A stretch of 38,219 nucleotides of DNA. Source: a virus. The stretch is taken from positions 1 through 38,219 of the IMG/VR virus record IMGVR_UViG_3300008516_000274, one strand, 5' to 3'. The position numbers and the translations under genes are program-made. Position 1 is the first letter of the stretch, and every line of letters begins with the position of its first letter. The notes under the pieces were generated by a model that ran no database searches, was not told where the DNA came from, and saw nothing but the letters and a program-made list of their open reading frames with translations. Below are positions 4,229 through 38,160 of this stretch, one piece after another.

Positions 4229-4249
4229 GTATCATATAACTAATTTTAA

Positions 4250-4320
4250 TGGGGCAGCTAGGATTCGAACCTAGATTGAGTGGTCCCAAACCGCCCGTGC
4301 TGCCATTACATCACTGCCCC
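4250..4320 (-). tRNA. tRNA-Pro (anticodon UGG)
   Basis: The minus strand gives a full cloverleaf: acceptor GGGGCAG/CTGCCCC (7 bp), D-arm TGT/GCA-type with loop AATGGCA, anticodon loop TTTGGGA (anticodon TGG, codon CCA), a 4-nt variable region and a perfect T-arm CTAGG-TTCGAAT-CCTAG. The discriminator is A and no CCA is encoded, usual in archaea and in some bacteria. The first D-stem pair (A10-C25) and the middle of the anticodon stem (C29-A41) are mismatched. The 5' ten bases overlap the end of the upstream CDS, including its TGA stop. No other tRNA was found. Confidence 0.93.
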
Positions 4321-4532
4321 AATTTACATTCATGATAAGGAAAATAGAAAGTGTTCTCTCCAGAACCCCTCTCTATCCAGATGACTTCTCCCTGGTAAGG
4401 ACATTCAACAGCGCACTTCAGCACATGCTCAAGCTTGCAGTAATTCCTGTCTCCGATCCCTATAAATTTTCTGTAAAGCTGACACTTGGCTATCTCTTCC
4501 CTTATTATTGCTTGTAGGATGTTCTTCTTCAT
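4311..4532 (-). CDS. Cys-rich hypothetical protein (73 aa)
   Basis: Five cysteines at about 17, 32, 40, 44 and 69 (with YCKLEH, CAVECPYQGEV and HECKLGQ) suggest a bound metal ion or an Fe-S cluster; the C-x7-C-x3-C core is not a standard zinc ribbon. The ATG overlaps the stop of the upstream membrane protein (ATGA). The final codons GGG CAG TGA are also the first bases of tRNA-Pro, so this mRNA and the tRNA cannot both be produced from the same transcript after tRNA 5' processing. Confidence 0.72.
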   Translation of the reverse strand: MKKNILQAIIREEIAKCQLYRKFIGIGDRNYCKLEHVLKCAVECPYQGEVIWIERGSGENTFYFPYHECKLGQ

Positions 4533-4945: not shown

Positions 4946-5397
4946 ATATAAGCATTCCTTATTGATTCCTTTACTCCATCCTTGATGGTTTCCACGCTTG
5001 ACAGCTTACTATCAATCACGGTCTCTGCATTGCTTAGAGTTGTCAAGCTCTGCTCATAGTAAACCTTGTTTGAATCATCATCGTATTTTGTGGTTCCTAA
5101 TTCATCTTCAACATCAGAAAAGAATTGGATCTTTTGGTTATCCCATTCAGACATTGAAGAAGTAAACTTCTCATCTCCATCGTAGTCCTCTAACTCTGAC
5201 TTCTCTCCAACTGCTTCACTACCTCTAAGCAGATGGACAACTTGATATTCTCCTTTGTGGACTCCTACCACTGGCTTGAACTGATCTCCAACCACTACAA
5301 TAAATCCAAACTTATGAATGAAGTAAATGATATCACCATCTTTAAGTTCCACTTCTGCAATCTCTGATAAACTCTCAATAATTTTGTATTCAACCAT
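4942..5397 (-). CDS. Tail-region protein of unknown function (151 aa)
   Basis: Start at 5397 (MVEYKIIESL), inside the end of the upstream spike gene; the identical context ACTATGGTT also starts the upstream spike gene, which supports this choice over the ATG at 5409. Residues 10-70 are beta-rich (KDGDIIYFIHKFGFIVVVG); the C-terminal half is acidic and helical. It follows the adhesin genes, so a small tail-tip or chaperone role is possible. Confidence 0.68.
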   Translation of the reverse strand: MVEYKIIESLSEIAEVELKDGDIIYFIHKFGFIVVVGDQFKPVVGVHKGEYQVVHLLRGSEAVGEKSELEDYDGDEKFTSSMSEWDNQKIQFFSDVEDELGTTKYDDDSNKVYYEQSLTTLSNAETVIDSKLSSVETIKDGVKESIRNAYI

Positions 5398-6607
5398 AGT
5401 ACATCGCATAATCAGAAATGTAATCTATTTCTGAATTATCTCCTCTTTGTATTGTGAACTTAACAAATAAAAAAGTTCCTAAGTAATGTATCTTTGCTAA
5501 TTCTTTTTCAGTAACTTCAATCCAATGTGCTTGATTATCAAATGAAACTTCTGTTTTTAATGTTCCAGATGTTAAACTATGTAAAGATTTTATAATAACA
5601 CTGGTTTCATTTCCAGATAAGGTTCTTAAATCTGTTATGATGTAACCATTAACGTCATCAAAATCGGATAATTCAAATGCTGGATAATATTGAAATTGAG
5701 TATCAAAAACCTCTCTGGTAATGCTAAATCCATTGTTTACTATTGTTCCTTTGGTCATGGTTCCTTTACAAAGAACAATTCCTCTTGAATAAGCTTGTAG
5801 AGGAACATTGTACCAACAACCGTTAGCATTACATTGTATTCTGGTATTTGCCGGATTATCTGCTCGTTCAGAATCAGTATCTGTTCCATATTCATCTCCA
5901 CCACTATTAACTGTGGTTCCAGAAGGCATTTGCATTATAGCAGAAGTTACATTTGTTCCATAACAAATACTCCAAATTTGAGCATAGGTATTTGATTCAG
6001 TATCATCAAAGGTGTCAATCCTATAACAATTTCTCCCGCTTCCACCAGAAGTATCTTGTGTGCTAAAAGTACCAAGCAACTCAATGTAATAAGCTTGTTT
6101 TCCAACATCATTAGCATCACTTGTTTTGAGAGCAGTTACGCCTGTTACATAAGTGGAATTAAGTCTTGCACCTGTTGGTGTAGTTCCTGTTCCGACATAG
6201 AGAGTCTGCATAACTTTACTTCTTGCTTTTCCCCATGTAGAACTATCGTCATAGTAAAGTCTCCAAATACCAACATCTAAAGTTATCATCTTACAACCAT
6301 TAATCTCCCAGTCTCCAATACCTGAAATAGAAGTTGCATAAATATCTATAAAGTACATTGTAGAACTTGCCCAGTTAATTGTTTCATACCAATCATTTCC
6401 ACTATTATAATCCATGTTAGAAACAAAAGAAGCAGTATCAGAAGTGAAGTTATCTGACTTAAAATTATCCTGACTTGTTATTGTCTTTCCATCCAGGGCA
6501 TAATTGATTGGTCCTAGCAGACCGAAAGAATAATTGTGTTTCAGTTTCTCTTCTGTAACATGCTTCTTTATAGGATCAACGTCCTTGATGTAATAAAGCT
6601 TAACCAT
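5390..6607 (-). CDS. Tail spike/adhesin with large inserted domain (405 aa)
   Basis: Residues 25-85 (INYALDGKTITSQDN, NFTSDTASF) and the C-terminal 80 (EVSFDNQAHWIEVTEKELA, ending YISDYAMYYG) are clearly paralogous to the two ends of the next upstream protein. Between them sit about 240 extra residues, beta-rich and Gly/Thr/Ser-rich with several Cys, that the paralogue lacks. This is the pattern of a receptor-binding domain inserted into a tail-spike scaffold. Start at 6607 (MVKLYYIKD), overlapping the upstream stop. Exact ligand cannot be told from sequence. Confidence 0.72.
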   Translation of the reverse strand: MVKLYYIKDVDPIKKHVTEEKLKHNYSFGLLGPINYALDGKTITSQDNFKSDNFTSDTASFVSNMDYNSGNDWYETINWASSTMYFIDIYATSISGIGDWEINGCKMITLDVGIWRLYYDDSSTWGKARSKVMQTLYVGTGTTPTGARLNSTYVTGVTALKTSDANDVGKQAYYIELLGTFSTQDTSGGSGRNCYRIDTFDDTESNTYAQIWSICYGTNVTSAIMQMPSGTTVNSGGDEYGTDTDSERADNPANTRIQCNANGCWYNVPLQAYSRGIVLCKGTMTKGTIVNNGFSITREVFDTQFQYYPAFELSDFDDVNGYIITDLRTLSGNETSVIIKSLHSLTSGTLKTEVSFDNQAHWIEVTEKELAKIHYLGTFLFVKFTIQRGDNSEIDYISDYAMYYG

Positions 6608-30919: not shown

Positions 30920-31209
30920 CCTTTCTTCACCTTAGGTTTCTTCTTTTTCTTGGCTTTTAATTTCTTAATCTGATCAGTCTGTAAGTTTATTTCGTTTTCT
31001 AAGTGGTCTACATTTAATCTGAGTTCCTTGGTTTTTTCTTGTTCCTTTTTAAGTTTCTCCTTATCAGTTTCCCCCATATAACTTTGCTGATGTCCATTTG
31101 GGCAATAAAAAGAGCTCTTATTCTTTCTCAATACTACGTCATGTTCTTTATTAATCCAAAAAGAAATTCCACAACTTATACAGCTATGTTCTATTAATTC
31201 TATGTTCAT
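30916..31209 (-). CDS. Zinc-binding plus coiled-coil phage protein (97 aa)
   Basis: C10-x2-C13 (CISC) and C36-x3-H40 (CPNGH) make a zinc site, followed by a coiled coil (ETDKEKLKKEQEKTKELRL) and a Lys-rich end. The C-x2-C...FYCPNGH arrangement followed by coiled coil is common in phage proteins of unknown function. The start overlaps the ParB-like gene stop; both genes end in the same AAGGTGAAGAAAGGATGA-type junction. Confidence 0.76.
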   Translation of the reverse strand: MNIELIEHSCISCGISFWINKEHDVVLRKNKSSFYCPNGHQQSYMGETDKEKLKKEQEKTKELRLNVDHLENEINLQTDQIKKLKAKKKKKPKVKKG

Positions 31210-31745
31210 CCTTTCTTCACCTCTCCTTTCTTTAAAATCTTAATCTTTCCTTTGCAGTGGGGACAATCAATAGTTCTCTCAACACTAACATCCATTTCCT
31301 TATCTAAAATATCTTTAGATTCTTGGTCTGTCTTGTTAATAGCGTTTAATATCTCCTGCTCGGATATTGCAGTTAATAAAGTTAAATCCTCTAAATTAGA
31401 TTCAGCCAGTATTTTCTTAAATTCTTCTGCATCTAGTTCTTCGTTATGAGAGCCACGAAGTTTATTCATACTTTGTCTTAAGATCCTTCTCTGATTGTCT
31501 GTTAATTCCTTTCTTAGAACTGGTACTTTAGGTAAATTCATCTCTTTCGCTACAATCAATTTCTGTTCTCCATCAGCTATTAAATAGTTCATATTCGTTA
31601 TAATAGGCATGTTCCAACCGAACTTTTCTATATTTTTCTTTAAAGCAGCTTTCTCTTTGTCCGTCATACTATTTGGATTTTCTCCATCTGTTTTTAACTT
31701 ATTAATATCTACCCATTCCCAATTTGTTTGTTCAATTTTTATCAT
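31206..31745 (-). CDS. ParB/Srx-domain protein with C-terminal CPHC (179 aa)
   Basis: Residues 20-100 match a ParB-like nucleotide-binding domain: NPNSMTDKEKAALKKNIEKF, GWNMPIITNMNYLIADGEQK with GEQK in place of the usual GERR/GEHR, and the helix NQRRILRQSMNKLRGSHNEE. A CPHC knuckle (C161, C164) ends the protein. ParB-domain proteins in phages often accompany methyltransferases and may act as CTPases, nucleases or in partition; here it lies two small genes downstream of the methyltransferase. Confidence 0.78.
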   Translation of the reverse strand: MIKIEQTNWEWVDINKLKTDGENPNSMTDKEKAALKKNIEKFGWNMPIITNMNYLIADGEQKLIVAKEMNLPKVPVLRKELTDNQRRILRQSMNKLRGSHNEELDAEEFKKILAESNLEDLTLLTAISEQEILNAINKTDQESKDILDKEMDVSVERTIDCPHCKGKIKILKKGEVKKG

Positions 31746-32103: not shown

Positions 32104-33570
32104 TCAATATTTTAAATTCCCTATGTTTTCTTGGTCAGATGAGTATTTTTCATCTGCTCTCCAGTTTCCTTTGTTTCCGAATTTTGCTGGGTCTGTTCCT
32201 TTGCTAAGCGAATCTGCAAAGGGTGGACTGAATGCAATTGTGTCAATTGCCCCCTCCTCTCCAGCTAGCTTCTGAAACACCAAAACATCCTCTTCTAAAG
32301 GATAAGGATGTGGTTTACCTGGATATTTCTTTTCATACTTTTGAATAGCATTTGTAATCCAGAAGGAAGGATTTGTTATTTTTCTGTAGTGCCTAGTTTT
32401 GTAAGTAAAACCTGCTTTTTCTACTAGTTTTATTGTGTCTAAGTCTAATCTAATTTGTACTCCTTTTCTTACGAAATTCTTTAAAACTAAAATCATAAAA
32501 CCTTGATTGCGTAATACTTTATAACACTCAAGATAAATCCTATACATCTCAGTTAGGTAATTTTTTCCTTTCTTATTTCCTAAATTCTTTTTGTCTTTTG
32601 AATAAAGCCATTTCTCATTTCCACCCATATCCGCAAATAATTGATGATTTGTTCTATCTTCATCAGCTAATCTATTTCCATAAGGAGGACTTGTTATGAT
32701 TGAATCAATCTCTCCATGAGGAAGATTTCCTAAGTTATTTTCATCTGGAGAATATTCAGAAAAACAATGCCAAGTTTCATCATAATTTTTTTTGTATCTT
32801 GGATCTCCTTTAGCAGAAAGATAAGCTTCCATTAAAATATTTCTTTTCTCTGGATATTTTTCAGCGAATTTGTCAGCTCTTTCTTTGAGTTGTTTTATAT
32901 CCTGTTCCTTGCAGTAAACTCTATCTTTTAACTTAGGATCCTTCCAATGACCTTTCTTTGCAATACCGCTACCCCTTTGAATTGCTTCCGAGTAGGGTGG
33001 AGAAGTAATTATCTGATCTACTTGGCCATAATCCATATTGCTTATATTATTTTTATCTTGAGAATGAATCTTATTTAAAAATCCCGAACCGCCTTTAACT
33101 TTATTTTTATCCCATTGTTCTTTTTGTTTCTCTCCTTGATTTTTATTTTCACAAGGATTACTATTGGCGAAAGGCGGACTAAAAATAATAGAGTCTGGAA
33201 TATCTGCTTTCGCCAATACTTGCGAAAGCTCTCTAGAATCTCCTTTTAAAATAACTCCTTTTCCTAAAGAACACATAAATTTCATTGATCTCTCTGTCTT
33301 TTTTATGTTTTCAGTTGCCATATCAACAAACTTCTGTTCATATTCAATACCTATTACATTTCTACCCAATAACATCCCTTCAATCAATGTGGTGCCGATT
33401 CCTGCCATTACATCTAAAATAAGTTCTCCGGGCTTAGAATAGCGCTTTATTATTTCTCTACATAAGTGTAAACTCATCTTAGCTGGATGAGAAATTGACT
33501 CTTTAGTATAGCAAATCAAATTTCTCTTTTCAGAACCAAACTTCCAAATATCTTTAAATTCTGTTTTCAT
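32104..33570 (-). CDS. DNA methyltransferase with four SPP(Y/F) motifs (488 aa)
   Basis: The SAM-binding motif I is N-terminal (LDVMAGIGTTLIEGMLLGR, residues 52-70). Catalytic-type motif IV occurs four times: IIFSPPFANSNP (about 129-140), IITSPPYSEAIQ (187-198), IITSPPYGNRLA (291-302) and IAFSPPFADSLS (445-456); three are preceded by a G-x-[VI]-D-x-I unit, and NNLGNLP/ENIGNL-like spacers recur. SPPY motifs are typical of N4-cytosine and some N6-adenine methyltransferases. A normal enzyme needs one. The order motif I then motif IV fits such enzymes. It overlaps the upstream nuclease-like gene by four bases. Probably modifies viral DNA against host restriction. Confidence 0.85.
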   Translation of the reverse strand: MKTEFKDIWKFGSEKRNLICYTKESISHPAKMSLHLCREIIKRYSKPGELILDVMAGIGTTLIEGMLLGRNVIGIEYEQKFVDMATENIKKTERSMKFMCSLGKGVILKGDSRELSQVLAKADIPDSIIFSPPFANSNPCENKNQGEKQKEQWDKNKVKGGSGFLNKIHSQDKNNISNMDYGQVDQIITSPPYSEAIQRGSGIAKKGHWKDPKLKDRVYCKEQDIKQLKERADKFAEKYPEKRNILMEAYLSAKGDPRYKKNYDETWHCFSEYSPDENNLGNLPHGEIDSIITSPPYGNRLADEDRTNHQLFADMGGNEKWLYSKDKKNLGNKKGKNYLTEMYRIYLECYKVLRNQGFMILVLKNFVRKGVQIRLDLDTIKLVEKAGFTYKTRHYRKITNPSFWITNAIQKYEKKYPGKPHPYPLEEDVLVFQKLAGEEGAIDTIAFSPPFADSLSKGTDPAKFGNKGNWRADEKYSSDQENIGNLKY

Positions 33571-34754: not shown

Positions 34755-36248
34755 TTATGCCTTCTCCATGATCTTGGGAACCTGACCCTTCTTCCATCCT
34801 TTCTTGATTACTTCAATTATCTCCGGGTTCTTCCTTGCTTTTCCTAAGTCTATTTTCAGTTCCTTTGCTAACTTAATCATCTGCTCTTTGGTGTACAACA
34901 TTAGGAACTCTTCCGTTATCTCAAAGTGTTTATTTAATTTAACACCTATCTTTTCAGCAGCCATCCTTAGTACTTCTTCATCCATATTGTAAAATATATT
35001 CTCTGCTAGTCTCTTTACTTCATCAAGTACTTGGCCTTTTGCGAATAGTTTCTTCATCTTGTCTTCCATTCCTTTACTGTGGTCTGGCTCAAAGTGATTC
35101 ATAAGATAATAAATCACAACCTTATCAGATAACGGCCCCGGCTTGAGCATTTCTTTGCATTTACCTATCAAGAAAGCTCTCTTGAACTCTGAAACTTTGC
35201 TCTTTAGTTTCTCCCTTCTATCTAAGTTCAGTGTTTTTCTTGCTTCCTCATTGTCTTCTGGAGTTGATTTTATATCATCTTTCTCCTTAGTCTTCTCCTT
35301 CTGAGGATCCAGTGCATAAATATCCTTATCCAATCCGCCTGCTGTAAAATCAACAACAATCGCAGCTCCTTTGCTCCCAGGTAATGATTTGACTACCCTT
35401 GGATATCTGTCTTCCCAGCTACCTATCCTAACAGCGTTTGGATATTCCTTCCTTATCTCTTCTTCGCTACTGAAGACCATTATCTTTTTGTCCCTGAGTT
35501 TCTTTCTTTCTGACTCCACATAAGCAGCCATCTCTTTCCTAAAAGCTGGGCTGTCTATCAAGTCGTGATCAACGTCAGATTTTGGGAAGAGTTCCTGTCC
35601 CAAGCTACTAAGTAAGGTCTTCTGTTTACTTCCAAATCCATACTCATCTCCGGGCCTAAACTTAAGTTCTCCGAAGTCAACCTTCTTCATCCATCTGATC
35701 TGATCGGAGAAGTTCTGCACAGTCAGGTCCCAGTCTATGATCTCTTTCATTGCCTCTTTCTGCTGGTCCTTGTTCATCTGACAAAGCAACTGTGCATGAC
35801 CAATCTCAAGCTTTCTTTTATTAACTGCATCCCAGCATGATTGGTCAAGCTTCAGTAGATTTATTCTTCGCTCTATGTATTCTATTGTCTTCCCCAATTT
35901 TGTTGCTAGTTTTCCAGCAGCAAGTCCTGTCTTTTTTAGATATCCATTAAAGGCTCTTGATTCTTCCATTGGTGTTAAGTCTTTTCTCTGGATGTTTTCT
36001 ATCAGCTTTACCTCTTCATGGAAATTCTTATCCTTAGATGAAAGTTCTATTGTTGGTACAACTTTCAAACCAAGTTCTAAGGCACATTTTAATCTCCTTT
36101 CCCCAGCAACCAATTCTTTCTTTGAATTAATTACTAGGGGATGAAGTATCCCACATGCGGTAATAGAGTTCCTAAGCTCTTCCATGTTCCCAAAGTCTTT
36201 CCTTGGGTTACTCACTACTTTTATCAATTTTGGGTCTATACTTTCCAT
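34755..36248 (-). CDS. ParB-like protein (497 aa)
   Basis: Start at 36248 (MESIDPKLIK) with GGAGG eight bases upstream. ParB N-terminal domain: NPRKDFGNMEELRNSITACG, LVAGERRLKCALELG (GERR, residues 49-53), IENIQRKDLTPMEESRAF, followed by a helix-turn-helix (GLAAGKLATKLGKTIEYIE, about 108-126). A long C-terminal extension (200-497) is charged, with several helical segments of unknown role. ParB proteins bind centromere-like sites and hydrolyse CTP. No ParA is present, so it may act in plasmid-like maintenance, gene regulation or DNA processing rather than classical partition. The inverted repeats at 3801-3985 are candidate targets. Confidence 0.82.
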   Translation of the reverse strand: MESIDPKLIKVVSNPRKDFGNMEELRNSITACGILHPLVINSKKELVAGERRLKCALELGLKVVPTIELSSKDKNFHEEVKLIENIQRKDLTPMEESRAFNGYLKKTGLAAGKLATKLGKTIEYIERRINLLKLDQSCWDAVNKRKLEIGHAQLLCQMNKDQQKEAMKEIIDWDLTVQNFSDQIRWMKKVDFGELKFRPGDEYGFGSKQKTLLSSLGQELFPKSDVDHDLIDSPAFRKEMAAYVESERKKLRDKKIMVFSSEEEIRKEYPNAVRIGSWEDRYPRVVKSLPGSKGAAIVVDFTAGGLDKDIYALDPQKEKTKEKDDIKSTPEDNEEARKTLNLDRREKLKSKVSEFKRAFLIGKCKEMLKPGPLSDKVVIYYLMNHFEPDHSKGMEDKMKKLFAKGQVLDEVKRLAENIFYNMDEEVLRMAAEKIGVKLNKHFEITEEFLMLYTKEQMIKLAKELKIDLGKARKNPEIIEVIKKGWKKGQVPKIMEKA

Positions 36249-36249
36249 T

Positions 36250-36483
36250 TTATTTACCTCCATTAACTAAATCTTTTATTGTTTCTGCATCGTTCAAGAT
36301 CTTAATGCAGTTGTTAATTGTCTCTTCCTGGTCGTATTCAGGGCAGTCTGGACACACTGGCCTAGGGCAGGTTACATCAGGGCATCCTCTGCCTTCTCCG
36401 TAGAAAGCTATGAATCCCCAAAACAAGCCTACAATCAATGTCGCAACAATTATTATGATGAAGTATTGCCATTTGATTTCCAT
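36250..36483 (-). CDS. Membrane-anchored Cys-rich protein (77 aa)
   Basis: Start at 36483 (MEIKWQYF) eight bases after GGAGG. One TM segment (residues 5-27, IIIIVATLIVGLFWGFIAFY) is followed by a Cys/Pro cluster GCPDVTCPRPVCPDCPE and a helical tail. The cluster would face outside the cytoplasm if the N-terminus is inside, and could bind metal or form disulfides. A superinfection-exclusion or envelope role is possible; nothing proves it. Confidence 0.68.
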   Translation of the reverse strand: MEIKWQYFIIIIVATLIVGLFWGFIAFYGEGRGCPDVTCPRPVCPDCPEYDQEETINNCIKILNDAETIKDLVNGGK

Positions 36484-37981: not shown

Positions 37982-38160
37982 TCCTGCACCCCTGCTTTCT
38001 TAATCTCTTTGACTTTATCATCAGCTTTATTCCAGTTATCATAAGCTTTCTTCTTGTCATCATAAGCTTTATTCCAGTCATCATAAGCTTTATTCCAGTC
38101 ATCATAAGCTTTCTTCTTGTCATCATTAGCTTTCTCTAAATCTTCTTTTGTGTATTTCAT
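37978..38160 (-). CDS. Heptad-repeat coiled-coil protein (60 aa)
   Basis: After MKYTKEDLEKAND the protein is built from seven-residue units such as KKAYDDW and NKAYDDW, six copies, forming a charged coiled coil or alpha rod, and ends IKKAGVQE. The GGGGTG binding site and an ATGA junction link it to the gene at 42-242 across the circular join. Unit number could vary between strains by slippage, changing the rod length. Function unknown. Confidence 0.72.
   Translation of the reverse strand: MKYTKEDLEKANDDKKKAYDDWNKAYDDWNKAYDDKKKAYDNWNKADDKVKEIKKAGVQE
38017..38142. repeat. Six tandem 21-bp coding repeats
   Basis: Units have the form ATCATAAGCTTNNTNCNNGTC, starting at 38017, 38038, 38059, 38080, 38101 and 38122; units 3 and 4 are identical, as are units 2 and 5. 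Each encodes seven residues of the heptad-repeat protein. The window ends within reach of this array, where assemblers tend to break. Confidence 0.88.

Follow-up and report, generated by a model that had tools for sequence, protein, structure and literature searches.

An IMG/VR virus record of 38,219 nucleotides (IMGVR_UViG_3300008516_000274; this whole stretch is called the window below) encodes a predicted DNA methyltransferase in which one core, with one SAM-binding half, carries four cassettes, each with its own copy of the catalytic SPP(Y/F) motif. We consider it likely that this protein is a multispecific viral amino-methyltransferase, whose modules would share one SAM pocket, be swapped between viruses and direct methylation to several sites, allowing escape from restriction.

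One core and four cassettes in a single reading frame

The initial annotation of this DNA had described four SPP(Y/F) motifs accompanying a single motif I, and both counts were confirmed in the 488-aa translation. The motifs start at residues 131 (SPPF), 190 (SPPY), 294 (SPPY) and 448 (SPPF), which correspond to window positions 33180, 33003, 32691 and 32229. The G-x-[IV]-D-x-I unit and the NLGNLP/NIGNL-type spacers that had been reported with them were also present, the four spacers reading NISN, NLGNLP, NLGN and NIGNL. The gene is divided as follows.

32104..33570, minus strand: gene of the putative multi-cassette amino-methyltransferase; ORF of 488 aa, stop included, ATG start; Pfam N6_N4_Mtase, E=1.3e-24
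33208..33570, minus strand: N-terminal core, residues 1-121; motif X and motif I, the sole SAM-binding half
33394..33414, minus strand: motif I, DVMAGIG, residues 53-59, from the translation; near-invariant columns in alignments A2/A3
33031..33207, minus strand: cassette 1, residues 122-180; PDSIIF-SPPF, variable part, NNISNMD linker
32719..33030, minus strand: cassette 2, residues 181-284; VDQIIT-SPPY, variable part of 85 aa, NNLGNLP linker
32560..32718, minus strand: cassette 3, residues 285-337; IDSIIT-SPPY, short variable part of GNRL type, NLGN linker; adjoins alphaD
32263..32559, minus strand: C-terminal core, residues 338-436; alphaD, beta5, alphaE, beta6 and beta7 of the Rossmann fold
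32107..32262, minus strand: cassette 4, residues 437-488; IDTIAF-SPPF, variable part, ENIGNLKY, then the stop

The N-terminal core was delimited with the PF01555 profile (positions 138-220 of 221 on residues 3-86) and an AlphaFold pLDDT of ~90 for residues 30-120; its motif X, HPAK at residues 28-31, occurs in single copy. For the C-terminal core we relied on the secondary structure in both AlphaFold models and on the conserved series YLxAMxxVY...LVxKNF...SFW...HEDVLVF. Cassette 4 lies C-terminal to this core, beyond beta7, a point missing from the initial annotation; its placement is unique among the family members and its pLDDT is below 50 (AlphaFold). Chance or low complexity was ruled out as the source of the four motifs, since only seven matches to [SND]PP[YFW] were found in the six frames of the whole 38 kb and four of these fall inside the methyltransferase ORF.

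Homologues and module layout

A scan of IMG/VR with the window protein as the single query found no close homologues, its patterns having sat in variable regions, and homologues were then reached by searching with a pattern for the motif and with an alignment of the core (A1, consisting of cassette-stripped constructs and used for searching only). The first family scan, in viral contigs, used a DNA pattern for GN(L/F)xxGx(I/V/M)DxxxTSPP(Y/F) that was seeded on the spacer, and all of the 15 stretches it returned encode related enzymes with 2-7 motifs. The second search used core motifs only, in order to avoid seeding on the spacer. It returned one-motif and multi-motif homologues from viral contigs; the GTDB genomes yielded mostly homologues with one motif. 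Once duplicates were removed, the set comprised 89 proteins with one motif and 35 with several (2-7 motifs, 130 cassettes); as with pattern-based scans in general, it captures part of the family diversity. This comparison of motif numbers had been proposed in the initial annotation, which would have taken one-motif homologues of otherwise unrelated sequence as refuting its view of the extra copies; one-motif homologues do exist, but they share the module layout.

In the single-motif proteins the chain runs from the core through beta4-SPPY, 35-50 variable residues and a YSxxxxN(I/L)G(N/H) linker to alphaD. The multi-motif proteins have the same core and the same X-I-IV order, but carry two to seven modules instead of one, the SPPY-variable-linker-beta4 unit being repeated with a median variable length of 38 aa. 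Nearly all of the multi-motif proteins came from viral contigs; they also include L103, with four motifs, from a Hadesarchaea contig and L166, with five SPP motifs and one SPSY, from a Bathyarchaeota contig. Single-motif homologues came from Actinomycetes, Chloroflexi and viruses (L096-L175, L017, L050 and others). Among 28 other genomes of the phylum of L103, one contained a weak, interrupted relative and the others none. Of two scans with cassette types, one yielded L178 as the only new member and the other nothing.

Several loci of the family showed further peculiarities. A seven-cassette homologue (L008:10600-12050, minus strand) contains an intein with a LAGLIDADG domain at motif I (WCGN|SGSTG), as indicated by a Pfam LAGLIDADG_3 match and a weak Intein_splicing match. 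A four-cassette homologue (L003:12769-14670) has an insert of nearly 200 aa without a Pfam match between its last cassette and alphaD, possibly an unrecognised mobile element. The single-motif viral homologue at L019:3456-4289 contains another linker and a degenerate segment (GQIGQLHYVENSQPVAAARYDPSAENIGNL), apparently the site of a lost second cassette. Two adjacent multi-cassette genes, with four different cassettes in all, are found at L028:3450-4427 and 5333-6421. In Actinomycete MAGs and a relative, single-motif genes occur as overlapping pairs (L097:604-2422, L099:3890-5666 and L100:3890-5729), perhaps providing one methyltransferase per DNA strand.

Enzyme class and comparison with known systems

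The window protein matched PF01555 (N6_N4_Mtase) with 87.8 bits against a cut-off of 26.7, as did all 33 members of alignment A3. Relative to this profile it is permuted, with X-I first and motif IV later; this order is gamma-like and is not the beta-class order of the profile (IV, then X-I). SPPY is motif IV of most bacterial N4-cytosine methyltransferases (PMC8885841), and the SPP(Y/F) form of this class is present in four copies. The window enzyme is thus probably an amino-methyltransferase of the N4-cytosine type, and N4-methylcytosine is its predicted product because SPPY marks most bacterial enzymes of this kind (PMC8885841). The cytosine-C5 domain (Pfam DNA_methylase, PF00145) was absent from its Pfam matches.

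Multispecific m5C enzymes of the M.SPRI, M.Phi3TI, M.H2I and M.Rho11sI type methylate cytosine at C5 and have a single catalytic PC motif with separate TRDs. In Bacillus phages, such enzymes join several recognition modules to one core and protect against many restriction systems (PMC12707154). The window protein resembles those of temperate Bacillus phages in bearing several modules on one viral core within one polypeptide. The arrangement of one core with several exchangeable modules that characterises them is found in its sequence, where the modules would likewise serve recognition. It differs in being of the amino-methyltransferase type, and in that the catalytic motif and the beta4 strand are repeated with each module. 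Judged by layout, it is a multispecific methyltransferase outside the m5C multispecific family. M.FokI is a bifunctional fused amino-methyltransferase in which each half is complete with its own SAM site. Like M.FokI, the window protein would combine more than one specificity in one amino-methyltransferase polypeptide; unlike M.FokI, whose two domains each have a motif I, it has one motif I for all cassettes.

When solved folds were ranked by E-value, the nearest was that of the archaeal Trm11 tRNA m2G10 methyltransferase (6zxw, 5e71), also a Rossmann methyltransferase with motif I before motif IV. Trm11 differs from the window protein in its RNA substrate, its THUMP domain and its one motif IV, and the identity is ~11%. 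The second BFVD fold match, phage G gp294, has one motif. A full-text search of open-licence papers found no description of repeated SPPY motifs in one methyltransferase, and queries of the annotated phage collection found no multi-motif homologues in isolated phages. Nineteen representative cassettes gave no match at E<=1 when compared with phage and plasmid records, and no cassette matched a characterised enzyme.

Exchange of cassettes between viruses

Similarity between cassettes was found for none of the 208 pairs within a protein and for 117 of the 8177 pairs between proteins (E<=1e-3; 130 cassettes). Since only about three similar pairs would be expected by chance within proteins (208 x 0.0143), the zero is modest evidence of active non-redundancy. 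The lack of likeness within proteins rules out internal tandem duplication. At E<=1e-4, 69 of the 99 similar pairs occupied different ordinal positions in their proteins. Cassette 6 of L008 and cassette 1 of L031 were 86% identical, whereas the cores that carry them were only 39% identical. Conversely, L013 and L028, neighbouring genes on one viral contig, have cores with 95% identity and no cassette in common, and L011 and L025, with 90% identical cores, share none in a comparison of four against four. In another pair, the viral contigs L043 and L044, the 3.8 kb of DNA preceding the cassette array are 99.97% identical; within the array, one of the two has an extra whole cassette and a recognition stretch that is replaced right after the SPPYA codons, the remainder of the gene being intact. 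As read from these alignments, the L043/L044 difference and the mismatches between cores and cassettes are footprints of recent cassette exchange, with whole cassettes gained or lost. One cassette type is also present in L050, a single-motif enzyme, where it is the only recognition module.

Within the window protein, the variable part of cassette 2 was homologous to cassettes L013 c2, L178 c4 and L009 c1 (blastp E=9e-9, 6e-7 and 2e-6), and cassettes 1, 3 and 4 had no significant match among the other proteins. The GNRLxD of cassette 3 recurs in L007, L011, L031 and L038, a likeness that is not significant by itself. The initial annotation had suggested recombination between repeated cassettes. 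Exchange, gain and loss of cassettes as units agree with this suggestion, but the repeats are not those of one gene: because duplicates within a gene were absent, recombination appears to act mainly between viruses. Its suggestion of several target-recognition modes fits best when combined with recombination, the cassettes being non-redundant and common to different proteins and positions; each would then have a separate specificity.

Constraint on the catalytic motifs

SPP was kept in 129 of the 130 cassettes, and in 126 of these 129 the fourth residue was Y or F. The intact motif was equally frequent at first (34/34), middle (57/60) and last (34/35) positions. Among similar cassette pairs, pooled pN was 0.205 and pooled pS 0.754, a strong difference that indicates direction only since synonymous sites are near saturation. 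We conclude from these comparisons that the cassettes are under purifying selection irrespective of position. Decoys, as had been considered in the initial annotation, fit poorly with constraint on every motif, and decaying decoys are unlikely for the same reason. For the 203 within-protein pairs of the 35 multi-motif proteins, codon usage predicts 4.4 pairs with identical SPP codons, and 4 were observed; the motif is therefore conserved as protein and not as DNA. A DNA-level repeat or recombination element was ruled out, as the SPP codons differ in the way codon usage predicts.

Predicted structure

AlphaFold was run twice on the same window sequence, with an alignment of 71 homologues (run 1) and with multi-motif homologues only (run 2). 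Run 1 gave a confident Rossmann core with the strand of cassette 2 (residues 184-189) in the sheet (pLDDT 67.5, pTM 0.60), and run 2 placed the strand of cassette 3 (residues 288-293) there (pLDDT 65.3, pTM 0.56), with nearly equal alignment support for cassettes 1-3 (33, 32 and 27 rows). In each run the remaining three SPP segments were disordered, and two cassettes never occupied the beta4 slot together. The initial annotation had looked to structure prediction for the motif that lies by the SAM pocket; the answer was cassette 2 and then cassette 3, the occupant tracking the alignment. Because the occupant follows the alignment register and cassette pLDDT is low, the models speak to compatibility rather than to which cassette works, and they are compatible with one beta4 slot that has at least two possible occupants, cassettes 2 and 3.

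Proposed mechanism and alternative explanations

For the likely multispecific enzyme we propose that every module brings its own central beta4 strand, together with the catalytic SPP(Y/F) and a short recognition loop formed by the insert between motif IV and alphaD. At any moment a single module would occupy the beta4 position next to motif I, flanked by beta1 and beta5, and the remaining modules would be looped out, so that one polypeptide could methylate several short sequences, one per module and probably at cytosine N4. Recombination among related viruses would pass modules from one to another, add some and remove others, and thereby tune the repertoire to the restriction systems of their hosts. 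As with the Bacillus phage enzymes that carry several TRDs (PMC12707154), the benefit would be escape from several such systems. The sequence comparisons establish the architecture with one core per protein, its modularity, the constraint on every motif and the recent gain or loss of cassettes; a specificity for each module, the swapping in the slot, the N4-methylcytosine product and the restriction-escape role are what we infer. The fullest form of this proposal, in which 2-7 competing beta4/motif IV/recognition modules alternate in one slot and give combinatorial DNA specificities updated by recombination, we put forward tentatively, as an idea that may well fail. As for cassette 4 of the window, recombination may have misplaced it, or it may work after folding back, or in trans.

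It could also be argued that a single cassette is catalytic, either the first or the last before alphaD, and that the others are inactive recognition or scaffold segments, a reservoir from which recombination could assemble a fresh active enzyme, resembling phase or antigenic variation. The clear recombination of cassettes, the accommodation of one strand at a time by AlphaFold and the placement of the last cassette as in single-motif homologues are all in line with such a reservoir. Silent cassettes should, however, lose their catalytic residues, and the retention of SPP(Y/F) at first, middle and last positions, with constraint independent of cassette position, makes this explanation unlikely. 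Joint reading of one long or composite target by the cassettes, or a lowered specificity that approaches a non-specific methyltransferase, seems rather improbable to us. Non-specific phage methyltransferases such as M.EcoGII are known (PMC12707154), and the loops, with a median of 38 aa, are small compared with a classical recognition domain. The cassettes are nevertheless highly diverse, conserved within type and variable in number, and non-specific action needs neither type conservation nor exchange. Sharing of cassettes in an oligomer, where a core is completed by the cassette of a different chain and the extra motifs serve assembly or trans-complementation, would more easily explain window cassette 4 beyond beta7; we give it very little credence, given that all other proteins hold their cassettes between the two core halves, as suits action in cis.

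If the multispecific reading is true, multiplication of the catalytic strand along with the recognition loop is a new solution to the problem met by the m5C multispecific enzymes. Strand exchange in the beta4 slot would be, as a possibility, categorically new; we know of no earlier report of protein plasticity based on a swappable central beta strand. The more than 70 different small cassettes would constitute a natural library that could be grafted singly on a common core to link loop sequence with DNA site, and cassette repertoires would make anti-restriction history readable for viruses of uncultured hosts.

Genome setting

The window comes from a tailed virus, with genes for a terminase, an SU10-like major capsid protein, a portal and a tail tube. 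The methyltransferase gene is flanked on both sides by ParB-like genes, the second of which lies at 34755-36263 and the first, a possible functional neighbour, at the following position.

31206..31745, minus strand: ParB-like protein gene, PHROG 498/620 matches; downstream of the methyltransferase

On the Hadesarchaea contig, a ParB-like gene (L103:3138-3956) and the methyltransferase gene, with its four cassettes, overlap at the start of the latter. ParB was rejected as a conserved neighbour of the family, since the window and L103 were the only cases. Elsewhere, the window contains a viral tRNA-Pro (TGG) gene at 4249-4321 and, near its end, 5.6 tandem copies of a 21-bp unit at 38017-38133.
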